Origin: Tubiluchus corallicola
Lineage: Eukaryota > Priapulida > Priapulimorpha > Priapulimorphida > Tubiluchidae
Length of the DNA stretch: 64,000 nt
Assembly: GCA_030141605.1 (NCBI GenBank)
Contig: JAQGDQ010000102.1
Location: 511,266 to 575,265, forward strand
Reading direction: 5' to 3'
The translations under genes and the position numbers were made by a program. Of this stretch, positions 49,194 through 55,200 are shown in pieces. The number at the start of each line of letters is the position of its first letter. The first letter of the stretch is position 1. Under the pieces are notes generated by a model. The model was not told the origin of the DNA. It ran no database searches and was given only the letters and a program-made list of their open reading frames with translations.

Positions 49194-49290
49194 ATGTTAC
49201 GAAATAGCTCGTATTTAATCAATGTGAAACGTTGTAGCAAGCCGGTGATGTGTTGTAGGGCTTGGACGGCGTTTGTTCGTCATTTCGCCA
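49194..49290 (+). CDS. NFS1: Proposed NFS1 exon 1, mitochondrial presequence, possibly shared with OXSM
   Basis: The ATG at 49194 opens 32 codons plus one base, beginning [20 protein letters not shown] and ending [11 protein letters not shown]. The peptide has no acidic residue and many Arg and Lys residues. It ends in RHF-AS, which fits the R-3 rule for matrix processing peptidase (R-x-F, then A/S). The exon stops at a consensus GTATGT donor in phase 1. NFS1 exon 2 begins with the two bases GT, completing a serine codon. The OXSM exon begins GC, which also completes serine and stays in frame with the OXSM ATG. Without splicing, the frame ends eight codons further on. No transcript evidence is available, and a different NFS1 first exon between 51460 and 54100 cannot be ruled out. 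Confidence 0.7.
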
Positions 49291-52200
49291 GTATGTACAC
49301 GCTTTACGTATTATAACTTTACTTTACAGGTAGATTTTAAACACCTATCTTAGACATGGCGTGATATTGTATTACCTTCTGACTTAACTTTACAACAAGG
49401 AAAATATTTATATCTGTATTTTTTATTTTATTGTTTACCTGCATGTTGTCAATTACAAACAAACGGGAAAAACAGGCAAAAGTTACAAATTACAGCTGAT
49501 AGAATTATAACAGTTATTAATAAAAGTCACGTGATGAAAAATCGGAAAGGGTATTGTTTCAGTACATCACTACTCACCACATGCTGTTAAAAAGAAAAAT
49601 GTAAAATCTCTTCCTTGATACTGCACTGTGTGCTCCAATTACTGCAGCTATCACATGTTGACTGGAAGTTGGAGGAGGGGGTGTCCCAACCAGTGCGGGA
49701 CAATCGAGTTCGACGTGTTATAATTGTTTGTTCATCCTGCTACTTGGTGGCATTTAACTAACAACCCCTAAGGACAGTTTCCAGTTCTGGAATCAAGGTC
49801 ACTTTTTCTTGTCTTTTATGTTAAGCCTAGCCAGCAGCATATTAGTTGGAATCAGAATAGCTCAATGTTTGTAAAAAAGGTTTATTTTGCATAATTTTAG
49901 CATTCTGAGGTACATTTCTTTGCTGTGTAGAAAAGAGAAATTCAGTAGCTACGTAAGCCGTTTCACATTACAATCTATAAAGTGAAAAAAATAGTTAGTT
50001 TTGAGCATTTTCTTTCATTCATCAGCCGATTTTTGATAACTTGTGCTGTACTGAAACATGGAGTCTCATTCTGATTTTTCATTGTGAGATTTTTATTAAT
50101 TATAGGCCAGATGTCTACCTCTGTCAAGTTGATCCGTCGTGGTACGTGTCCATTACTTGCACGCAGTTACAGCGTGCCGTCAAGCCGTAGAGTTGTAGTA
50201 ACCGGTTTGGGGTTGGTGACTCCACTGGGAGTAGGAACACAGCACGTTTGGAACGAAATTCTCGGTGCCAGATGCGGCATAACCAAACTTCCCGCCGAAT
50301 TTTCCGGAATTCCTTCTCAGGTTGGAGCGTTCGTGCCAAGAGGGTACGAATCCTGGAAGTTCGACGAAGATTTTTGGTGCTCACCCAGTGAGAGAAAGAC
50401 AATTGCGCCGGCAACACTCTTTGCCGCAGCCGCTTGCGAAGAGGCATTGACGGACGCCAAATGGAAGCCGACAGATGCAGGTGACCTCGAACGAACGGGA
50501 GTTGCAATTGGCGGCTGTAGTGTTATGGCCGTCAAGGACATCATCGTGACAGCTGAGGCTTTCGGGAAAGGCTATAATAAAGTGCATCCGTATTTCATCC
50601 CTCGCATATTGACAAACATGGTTTCTGGTTTTGTTAGTATAAAATATGGTTTTCAGGGTCCGAACCACTCTGCATCCACGGCTTGTACGACTGGTTTACA
50701 TGCTATAGGCGACTCGTACAGGTTCATAAAGTACGGTGATGCAGATGTTATGATATGTGGTGGTGCCGATGCATCTATCGAACCCGTTGTTGTTGCTGGA
50801 TTTGCACGAATGAGGGCATTAAGCACAGATTTTAACGAAACTCCAGAGAAGTCATCCAGGCCATTCGATAAGGATCGAGACGGTTTTGTAATAGGCGAAG
50901 GTGCCGGGATTGTTGTTTTAGAGGAATATGAACATGCTAAGAGTCGCGGTGCTAATATTTATGGGGAAATTTTAGGATACGGTCTTTCCGGTGATGGCTA
51001 CCACATATCGACTGCTCGTCCGGATGGAATTGGTGTGGCACAGTGTATGCAGGCTGCTGTGAGAGAAGCGGGCATTTCTCTCGAAGATGTCACATACGTC
51101 AACGCACATGCTACATCCACACCATCAGGAGATCGAGCTGAGTGCGTCGGAATAAGGCGAGTGTTTGGTGAATACACCAACCGGTTGGCAGTTTCGTCAA
51201 CGAAAGGAGCAACAGGTCACTTGCTAGGAGCAGCTGGAAGTGTGGAAGCCATTTTCACCATATTAGCTTGCAACATGGGACACATTCCTCCCACTATCAA
51301 CATGATATGGTGCGAAGAGGAGATAAAGGATTGCGGTATGAATTTGGTGCCACTGGCACCTCAGGACTGGTCCAAGGAAGAGAAACGTCGCATAGCTTTG
51401 ACCAACTCTTTCGGTTTTGGTGGAACGAACAGTAGCTTGTGCATTGCTGACTTATGATAATTGTTAGTCATAGTCTTTGTTTGATGCAAATGATCATTGC
51501 AATACATAAAGCGAATAGCTGGGTCTTCAACAGTATTTAAATTTCTAATCTTGACAATGCTTCCTGATGTGATGTATTGGCTGCATTGCCAAAATTCCCA
51601 CAATGCACCGCGCTTGTTGTCATTGTGCAACAAATAAAACTGTTTTGAAATTGGCATTTGTAAAATCGTTGTCTTCAACTGACGATACGTGTTTGAATTG
51701 CTTTAGCTGTTCGTCGTTAGGTTAAACAGTTTTCCTAGATCATTTACTGAACTCTCTGAATTATTTTTTCATGTGTATACGTATTAAATCACTGGCTAAA
51801 GTTTACATTTCTCCTCAAACAAGAAATTAGTTCGTGAAGCAGATTAGCCTTAGGGTTGGTTTAGGGTTACGATTAGGGTTAAGGTCAAGGGTAGGGTTAG
51901 TGTTAGTGCGTTTAAATTGTGTTATGAACTGTAAACTCCTTCCAAATCATTTTTCTGTAATGCTTATTCTGATATTTGTATACTAGATAATTCTTACTTA
52001 TGCACAGTTTAGTGTAATCGCTGTTAATTAAGTAGATTTTTTGTTTTCTGTATAATTATTTCACTTTAGGTTATGCATGTTTATACCTCAATCATCAGCA
52101 AAATCCTATAGATTGTATAAATAGTTGACGTCTTGTATGGTAAACTGTTCGCTGATCATCATTTATCGTTCATCACAACTTGTCACCATTGATCAAACTA

Positions 52201-55200
52201 TATGTACATTTTATATTTTCTATTTATGTTAATGGTCTGGGTGGCCTGTACGTTTTGTGGTATTTTTGCCGTGTACGGGACTTCCAGCCAACATCAGTAT
52301 GCAAACTACAAATGCAATTTTATTGTTTCCAAATTGTCATGTGGGTTGAATAAGAAATAAAAGTTAAAAAGAGTTAAGTTTAAAGTTTTCGTCTTTCACA
52401 CGTACCTGACTCATCTCTATCCTAGAATGTTTAAACGTGATTGTTGGGGATTGTTTGGTAAGTCGATTAAGAAAAATGAATGTCAATGCAATTTGAAAAC
52501 TTTATGTATCTGTAGATAATCTGTACATCTGAACAGAATTTTTTAAATGCTTTTGTTGAAATCTGATAAAAGATCATGAAAACAGCATTGAAATTTTTAA
52601 AATTTTGGCTTGAAACTTAAGATTAATTTTAAAATAAAAAATGAAGCTGCACATTTTAGTTCTATGACGAAATTATAAACATGGTTAAGTGTATAGAAAA
52701 ACATTTAAATTAACTGGTCAGTTTTCTTGAAATAACAAGCTGATGCAGACCACTCTGACATTATATGTAATAGTACAGCGTGGTACATAACATTTTGCTA
52801 ATGAGATCTAGAACAAGTTATAGAACAGAACAATTTTTTTACATCAAATTACTGTTGAAACAATTTTGAAGCTGTGCAAGATACCCGAGGTTTAACAACT
52901 AAATTTTGGGGCCATGTTAGATTTTCTATTGTTTCAGCAGTACTTTGATGTATTAAATTGTTCTGTACTCGTTGCATCTGCACGCCTTAGCAAAAGGTTA
53001 TGCACTGCCGTGTGTGTCTGAAATGCATGAACAGGCATTTTGCTTAAACAGAATAAGTGCATTAGCAAGTTATCCTTTTCTAAATTTGATACTAAAGTTA
53101 AAGGATTGAGTCCGCAACTTTGTCTTGTGGATTTATGGAACTGCATAGCTGGAGGAGTCGTGGAATCATTCCGTTTTTTCAATCGTTATTTTCCACATCC
53201 AGCTTCAAAGCTGAAATGCTAAGTTTCGGATAGCTCATTTTAGTTTTTCTGGACCCATTCCAAGAATTGGTCCGAAACAATCAGTTTTGTCTTGCATCAC
53301 CATCAACGTCATTGCGGACATGATAAAAAATCAGACCACAGCTGTGGATTCTGCTGCATCTACGATTTTCTTAGGGACATATTGAGAAGACGTTCATCTA
53401 CATGTGGTCACCTTCATGCCAAAAGGAGTCTCACCATCTCGCTACACTAAATCAACAACTCTGCTTTAGAAATTATTGATTTTTAGTGGCACGTTCCTCA
53501 CAAGTCCAAAAACTTTTGAACTAAATATATAGGTCCACTAAAACTAACTGGAAAACTAAATACATGCAACAATATTTATTGTATGTATCATATGAATGCC
53601 ACAACTGCACAGTAAATCCAAACATATTTGTCTTTGCTTTTGTTCATTCTCTGTTGACTGTGGTCATCCATGGTGACATACAGCGAGACCTCTTTATACT
53701 ACCACTCTGGTACTACAGAAAAAGTTGGCACTAAGCGAGTTTGTGCATTAATACACACGTCTGGGCAAATATGGACATTTTGTTTTGCCAAAAATCTGCA
53801 CATTAAGCAAGGTTGCCATTATAATATGGTGCAATAATACACACGTCTGGGCAAATATAGGCATTCTGTTTTGCCAAAAATCTGGGCGTTAAGCAAGGTT
53901 GGCATTAACAAAGGGCGGGGAGCGGTTATAACGAGGTTTGACTGTATTCATATCTTAAGCACCAATGCGGTGATTGTATTCGCTTATATGCAGTTTCTCT
54001 GCAAAAGATGTGCAAATGCTGTGCGACTGCTTCACGACAACGCCTGTGTAAAAAGTCTGCAAATATTTTTGAAATAGTTTTAGAATACTCACATTTTTAC
54101 ATATTCCAGGTGAGAGCGTTCCGGAAACCAAGAAAGCATTGCTGGGAAAGGATGACCTGCGGCCATTATATTTCGATGCTCAGGCCACAACTCCATTGGT
54201 AATTTTCTGTCCAGCTTATCTCTTCTGTAATTGAAAGAAGATTTACTTACTCCAGCTTAAAATATTCTTTACTTTACCCTTGTATTTATGGCTTTTTACT
54301 AGTCAAACACAGCAAAGAAATCTGCTTGCTGCAACTTTTGTCATATAAAATTTGCACACGCATTTGAGGCAAGTCAAGCAACTTCTGTACATGCAGACAC
54401 AATCTACTATAGTCATTTAGACCTACTAGATGACTGATAGGCAAATTGATTCCTTTTCTGGGTTCATCGAGTGCACACAAGCAAAAATCTCTATCCTACA
54501 ACTTACTGCAGAGATTTTGCCTCATGTGCAACAGATGCATGTTTTGTGTGCTTCAAATACCAACAACATTGCTTTACAATGTACGAGAACTTGTGTCTTC
54601 TTTTAATAAACAATAAAAATAAATCGGGGGACCTACCACAACCGAGAATAAGACATTCGAAATATAGGGAGAAACAGTCTTGCACTTTTCAGTCTTGTTT
54701 TGTTAAAACTGGAATTTTAGCTGAAATTTCCAGTCAAGTAGAAAGGAATGATCTCGTTAAGATCCTCTATGAAGAAGTTTTCCATAATATTTCATTTCAC
54801 AAATAAAAATGGATGGACTAAGTTGAAGATATTGCAACATTGATAGGATGGTGTTGATACACACGTCATAGCACACTTGTTCCATTGAATGTCATGGTGG
54901 CTGTCATTACAGAACAGGTGATGAGGTGGAATACACATCTACCTGTCGGCCCACTGAAGCGATGAGTTCCATAGCGACGGTTTATAACTGGTATTCAACG
55001 CCACTAGGCAATCGTTTCACACCAATGGGTCTATCACAACAATAGAGGAGGTCAAAAATAAATCGCATTTTGCCCTTGTAACAATATTAAAAACCGTAAT
55101 CACGATATTTCACTTCTTCTTGCGGGAATTGTCTCATTTTTATTATTATTTTTATTTGTGTTAATTTAAGAGGCATCATTGTGTACATTAAATAATTATT

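Follow-up and report, generated by a model that had tools for sequence, protein, structure and literature searches.

OXSM nested on the same strand in intron 1 of NFS1 in the priapulid Tubiluchus corallicola, with a targeting-like N-terminus of its own

At the cholinergic locus VAChT/ChAT, one coding gene sits in intron 1 of another of related function, on the same strand and with a common 5′ region; the shared part is non-coding there, and the arrangement is ancient and widespread. Here we compare such loci with a stretch of 64,000 nt from the priapulid Tubiluchus corallicola (the window, whose numbering is used for all positions and which corresponds to 511266-575265 of its contig; the whole assembly comprises 343.5 Mb in 2344 contigs), in which OXSM, the gene for the mitochondrial beta-ketoacyl-acyl carrier protein (ACP) synthase, lies in the first intron of the desulfurase gene NFS1. 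In grasses, rps14 is located in an intron of sdh2, and alternative splicing is reported to give both products the SDH2 presequence (SDHB-RPS14; PMC1543663). In human, 24 gene pairs are described in which the first exon is common to both genes and the coding sequences are different, and CPNE1 and RBM12 share an exon of the 5′ untranslated region (5′UTR) together with the promoter, a sharing reported in human, mouse, and zebrafish (PMC2568002). For the ctenophore Hormiphora, 2357 nested genes in 1654 hosts are reported, many of them parallel to the host (PMC8527503). As to the two functions concerned here, ACP has been tied to iron-sulfur (Fe-S) biogenesis (PMC4991935), and proteomics of cells mutant in mitochondrial fatty acid synthesis (mtFAS; one Oxsm and two Mecr clones) is reported to show a decrease of LYRM4/ISD11 and NFS1 (PMC7470841).

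Both genes are on the + strand and form a same-strand nested pair: the coding region of OXSM (50111-51457) falls wholly between the end of NFS1 exon 1 at 49290 and the start of exon 2 at 54110, so that a complete coding region is contained in an intron of the host, as expected of a nested intronic gene. OXSM was intact, and NFS1 was in frame over 12 exons, with one conserved exon absent at the locus. The features of the two genes are as follows.

49194..49290, + strand: very probable NFS1 exon 1, with start codon and a leader like a mitochondrial presequence; its GTATGT donor is in phase 1, and its frame continues into 54110 and later exons
50111..51457, + strand: OXSM, whole coding region in one exon, including a leader of its own; best PDB match 2c9h
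51633..51638, + strand: candidate polyadenylation signal (AATAAA), located about 175 nt downstream of the OXSM stop
54110..54198, + strand: NFS1 exon 2; acceptor of 4.71 bits, 99th percentile of the 3616 AGs of the window
55254..55370, + strand: NFS1 exon 3
55371..57133, + strand: NFS1 intron 3, site of the missing TSGATESNN exon; contains a dispersed repeat
57134..57232, + strand: NFS1 exon (4th found)
57695..57788, + strand: NFS1 exon (5th found)
58923..59057, + strand: NFS1 exon (6th found)
60103..60260, + strand: NFS1 exon (7th found)
60654..60759, + strand: NFS1 exon (8th found)
63423..63504, + strand: NFS1 exon (9th found); three further exons lie beyond the window

OXSM contained the Pfam ketoacyl-synthase domains, and its PDB match 2c9h is a mitochondrial beta-ketoacyl synthase (E 8.4e-146). 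Ahead of the conserved RRVVVTG, its own N-terminus comprises 25 residues with four arginines or lysines and no aspartate or glutamate, and the hydrophobic moment of this leader was 0.371, compared with 0.375 for the NFS1 leader. The motif VVVTG, preceded by 27 residues in OXSM, was present in 115 of 120 relatives among the matches listed; 20-45 residues preceded it in 68 of these, 13-19 in 18, 12 or fewer in 27, and more than 45 in two. In length and composition, the OXSM N-terminus is like that of many relatives, and it is predicted to be a targeting-like signal that would direct import. With an ATG of its own and an N-terminus that is free of acidic residues, bears Arg/Lys, and has a length often seen in other animals, OXSM should not need to borrow the NFS1 exon. 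None of the 120 relatives listed was a protein of the same species, the best match being 69% identical; in a tree of 51 rows, OXSM grouped with this sequence (P0002) among bilaterians, its position being open. A COX1 search using the standard code gave no match.

The NFS1 exon starts with the ATG at 49194, is 97 nt long, and ends in phase 1 at the donor CCA/GTATGT. It encodes a leader of 32 residues followed by a serine completed across the junction, with six arginines or lysines and no aspartate or glutamate. Joined to 54110, it led into the NFS1 frame through 12 exons up to a stop codon that lies outside the window, at 67549 in the same numbering. As the frame opened by this join continues through every NFS1 exon found, and as 54110 scores as a strong acceptor, 49194-49290 is very probably the real exon 1 of NFS1. 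Under criteria for leader-like exons that were set after the exon had been seen (20-60 residues, no Asp/Glu, at least five Arg/Lys, and a phase-1 donor scoring 0.3 bits or more), it was the sole such exon in the window (one on the + strand, none on the - strand). Among 200 Markov copies made of 48991-54109, leader-like exons averaged 0.145 per copy; 11.5% of the copies had at least one, and none had an R-3-like end motif. When 47000-54109 was scanned for another leader-like first exon with a phase-1 donor, none was found except the N-terminus of OXSM itself. In all this, an earlier sequence-only reading of the locus was supported: the gene identities, the nesting, the phases, the 97-bp exon with its GTATGT donor, the Arg/Lys-rich and acid-free leader, and the assignment of this exon to NFS1 agreed with its description. 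It had overlooked the presequence-like N-terminus of OXSM and the conserved exon that NFS1 lacks at this locus.

Upstream of NFS1, the window holds a neighbouring gene in the opposite orientation.

48464..48994, - strand: coding exons 1 and 2 of a gene for a UBR-box ubiquitin ligase (borders set by eye; zf-UBR domain, E 1e-19)

This ligase, which we take to be probably UBR3, is head-to-head with NFS1, the start codons being 199 bp apart (ligase start at 48994), and the region between them may be a two-way promoter. Four short upstream open reading frames (ORFs; ATGs at 49048, 49086, 49165, and 49178) were found at 49048-49205 before the NFS1 start, and the last of them (ATG 49178) overlaps the NFS1 ATG. 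Rfam and tRNA scans led nowhere.

OXSM is probably made from its own ATG, either through its own start site or through an uncoupled 5′ leader. NFS1 would start at the compact head-to-head region shared with the ligase gene, and its exon 1 would supply the NFS1 presequence and be spliced to 54110. OXSM would be a self-sufficient unit, translated from 50111 with its own presequence, and its mRNA would end at a polyadenylation site near 51633, where the AATAAA is the most upstream of the five AATAAA/ATTAAA motifs that follow the OXSM stop and precede NFS1 exon 2. This mRNA would start within intron 1 or, somewhat less probably, from the NFS1 promoter, in which case its 5′ leader would be spliced or uncoupled. 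The observed/expected ratio of CpG was 1.00-1.31 in 300-bp windows over 48951-49550, a rise consistent with a start region at the ligase/NFS1 boundary; it was 0.30-0.56 in windows over 49401-50000 and 0.99-1.14 across the first 1.1 kb of OXSM (mean of the whole 64,000 nt, 0.76). Because the DNA upstream of OXSM is CpG-poor though its first 1.1 kb is again high, the profile does not discriminate between an own and a shared OXSM start.

Several observations weigh against an independent OXSM. No separate promoter was identified for it, the DNA directly upstream being CpG-poor, and its ATG stands in a weak context (C at -3, T at +4). An AG lies 5 nt before this ATG, as expected of a spliced 5′ leader. 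The 27 relatives with 12 or fewer residues before VVVTG, as annotated, indicate that listed proteins do not always include a complete leader. Finally, if a transcript from the NFS1 promoter were left unspliced, OXSM would be preceded in it by ten upstream ATGs (49293-50058); OXSM would therefore need splicing or an internal start site.

Splice sites bearing on these options were scored with a generic position-weight matrix of textbook frequencies, which may misjudge this lineage. Two acceptor positions require particular attention.

50106..50110, + strand: proposed OXSM exon start, 5 nt upstream of the ATG; weak acceptor AG at 50104-50105
50026 (exon start), + strand: strongest acceptor-like AG of the 46 at 49354-50111; 5.19 bits

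Acceptor 50106 scored 0.86 bits (89th percentile of the AGs of the window), under all eight NFS1 acceptors in the window (0.99-8.12 bits), and ranked 9th of the 46 AGs, a ranking from which 49292, 49330, and 49334 were excluded as too close to the donor, two of them scoring above 4. The donor at 49290 was unremarkable with 0.35 bits, as were several other NFS1 donors (range from -0.31 to 5.68), and was outscored by competing donors at 49329 (CAG/GTAGAT, 2.77 bits) and 49244 (2.79 bits).

These scores bear on a sub-case of translation from the OXSM ATG in which OXSM would share the promoter of NFS1 without its leader, as in CPNE1/RBM12, exon 1 serving OXSM only as 5′UTR or as an upstream ORF. 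We regard this as possible, if doubtful. The two competing donors outscore 49290 and the acceptors 50026 and 50111 (1.71 bits) outscore 50106; with donor 49329 the leader frame closes at 49314, and the 24 human pairs with a common first exon and differing coding sequence show that such sharing occurs. When exon 1 was joined to 50026, the leader frame closed after 35 codons, and when it was joined to 50111, after 58. The joins tried, however, leave an upstream ORF of 33-58 codons before OXSM, and the argument from the scores draws on the generic matrix only.

The sequence-only reading had gone further and proposed that in-frame splicing joins the one presequence exon at 49194-49290 to 50106 (OXSM) as well as to 54110 (NFS1) under one promoter, which would give OXSM tandem presequences; this appears rather unlikely. 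Its statement that both acceptors keep the frame open was confirmed, since the phases are compatible and the join of 49290 to 50106 gave an open frame of 482 codons through OXSM. The exon-1 ATG, with A at -3, also has a better context than the OXSM ATG, and the join to 50106 would remove all ten upstream ATGs of the intron stretch. The metabolic link that the reading had invoked agrees with the reported decrease of LYRM4/ISD11 and NFS1 in mtFAS-mutant cells (PMC7470841), mtFAS and NFS1 being functionally coupled, and grass sdh2-rps14 provides an architectural precedent (PMC1543663). The reading knew of no described OXSM-NFS1 case, and none was found, for nesting or for gene order, in the open-licence literature, gene order being judged by the titles listed; the architecture itself is not new. 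On the other side, OXSM has its own leader, acceptor 50106 is weak as set out above, and the best AG (50026) closes the frame. In-frame joins are possible from one start-codon/presequence exon to both 50106 and 54110, but for OXSM at chance level only. Out of eight acceptors joined to exon 1 in a script, 50106 alone was in frame with OXSM, and in the open stretch before the OXSM ATG (50075-50110), one of three AGs (exon starts 50089, 50106, and 50111) was in frame, which is the one-third expected by chance. The frame fit of this junction does not exceed chance. Tandem presequences in a chimera would be tolerable, but they are not the single targeting source that the claim implies, and a targeting exon serving both genes found no support beyond being feasible. 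If it were true, the in-frame chimera would tie acyl-ACP synthesis to the NFS1-ISD11-ACP complex via one promoter, and the chimeric junction would be an animal counterpart of grass sdh2-rps14. Transcriptional coupling of OXSM and NFS1 at this locus would naturally test whether the link between mtFAS and NFS1 is also set at the gene level.

Synteny, which the same reading had suggested as a check, gave no sign of a conserved shared unit. In all six species named in both protein-search lists, species other than close relatives, OXSM and NFS1 were on different contigs, as judged by differing contig sizes; as a cluster can comprise more than one sequence, a given contig may be that of another cluster member. 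The OXSM and NFS1 contigs, in this order, were as follows.

Gigantopelta aegis: 96.8 and 59.9 Mb
Branchiostoma belcheri: 3.5 and 9.0 Mb
Mya arenaria: 82.8 and 75.8 Mb
Lymnaea stagnalis: 2.0 and 1.4 Mb
Pogona vitticeps: 122 and 241 Mb
Varanus komodoensis: 4.5 and 6.1 Mb

Because of this separation, the nesting of OXSM in NFS1 is not general in animals.

The exon absent from NFS1 was considered separately. The gene lacks 45-46 residues between AARK and EHKCVLD, including TSGATESNN. In the window, tblastn with the segments of 106 relatives gave a best E of 0.10 and a profile of 104 a best E of 0.8, whereas 212 of 212 flanking pieces used as controls matched (printed rows, 3e-20 to 1e-18). When the assembly was searched directly with the segment from Limulus, five places were revealed, all inside unsplit desulfurase-like frames (best E 4.7e-12, on C1997), and no separate exon. 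Since the segment was without a match in the window and occurred in the assembly only inside other, unsplit genes, we rejected the idea that the exon is hidden elsewhere. The annotated isoform X3 of Tachypleus tridentatus NFS1 (P0122) skips the same block with the same borders, which makes the block a single separable exon. Because the rest of the NFS1 gene is intact, the gap is most likely an omission of the assembly and possibly a true loss. The dispersed repeat in intron 3, at about 56461-56835, resembles stretches of the window at 8682-8962, 10222-10700, and 45422-45718 and was also present in 6 of 20 sampled stretches of the assembly. It is unlikely, although compatible with the other explanations, that the NFS1 copy is broken or misassembled and that the window does not show a pairing with a working NFS1: the absence of the exon from the window, the presence of TSGATESNN in the assembly only within five unsplit frames of other desulfurase-like genes, and the repeat at the expected exon site would fit this, but 12 exons were found in frame and conserved, unlike decay, and the block skipped in Tachypleus is a separable exon that an assembly could drop. 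The gap should nevertheless be cleared up before a working OXSM-NFS1 pair is claimed.

No second close copy of OXSM or NFS1 was found in the assembly. NFS1 itself was the one match split by introns, six further matches being long, unsplit desulfurase-like frames at 30-58% identity, and OXSM was the only match above 50% identity, with three other long frames at 40-50%. OXSM as a retrocopy with a surviving parent was rejected, as there was no split second copy in the assembly and these three matches were single open frames. We took the three OXSM-like frames for bacterial FabF-like genes and the six desulfurase-like frames likewise for bacterial ones, only C1997 being inspected among the latter. 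By its appearance, C1997 (L024) carries a bacterial isc operon (iscR, iscS, iscU, iscA, hscB) in this animal assembly, and the assembly therefore includes symbiont or contaminant contigs.

NFS1 intron 1 also contains inverted repeats, of which the larger borders OXSM.

49516..50100, no strand assigned: inverted-repeat stretch of about 585 bp; arms 49516-49609 and 49997-50100, TTAA at both outer ends

This stretch ends 10 bp before the OXSM ATG, and its right end provides the T-rich tract of acceptor 50106. Its arms were up to about 80% complementary, with an alignment score of 35 (median under the null, 11.5; of 300 random placements, 4 reached at least 38), and its DNA fold had a z of -2.89, one of 20 shuffles being as good. 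A mobile element (miniature inverted-repeat transposable element) was initially favoured and then dropped: the genome search gave no second match, and the end motif, allowing up to three mismatches, occurred 42 times compared with 48 for the reversed control, without excess. The three exact matches of the end motif were those used to make the pattern, including one stretch elsewhere (L012 8301-8327). We therefore refer to 49516-50100 as an unexplained foldback. A second inverted repeat was observed in the same intron at 52783-53005 (arms 52783-52864 and 52928-53005).

Compared with the known systems, the locus departs from VAChT/ChAT in that the arrangement is not conserved across animals, as the separate contigs indicate. 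In Hormiphora, the shared first exons are described as short leaders (35-48 bp), apparently from trans-splicing, unlike the exon discussed here (PMC8527503). The likeness to grass sdh2-rps14 lies in a gene for a mitochondrial protein nested in an intron of another such gene, with a host exon 1 that could be spliced to both; in that account, however, rps14 is derived from the mitochondrial genome, depends on the host presequence, and has documented alternative splicing, whereas OXSM has its own ATG and presequence-like N-terminus, and its splicing to the host exon is hypothetical (PMC1543663). Should the start be shared, the locus would resemble CPNE1/RBM12, with same-strand genes of unrelated coding sequence and a common 5′ exon and promoter; there, the shared exon is 5′UTR and not a coding presequence, and the sharing is reported from several vertebrates, in contrast to the different contigs of OXSM and NFS1 in six species (PMC2568002). 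Both nesting and shared first exons thus have precedents, and OXSM within NFS1 is a further example of an already known gene arrangement.

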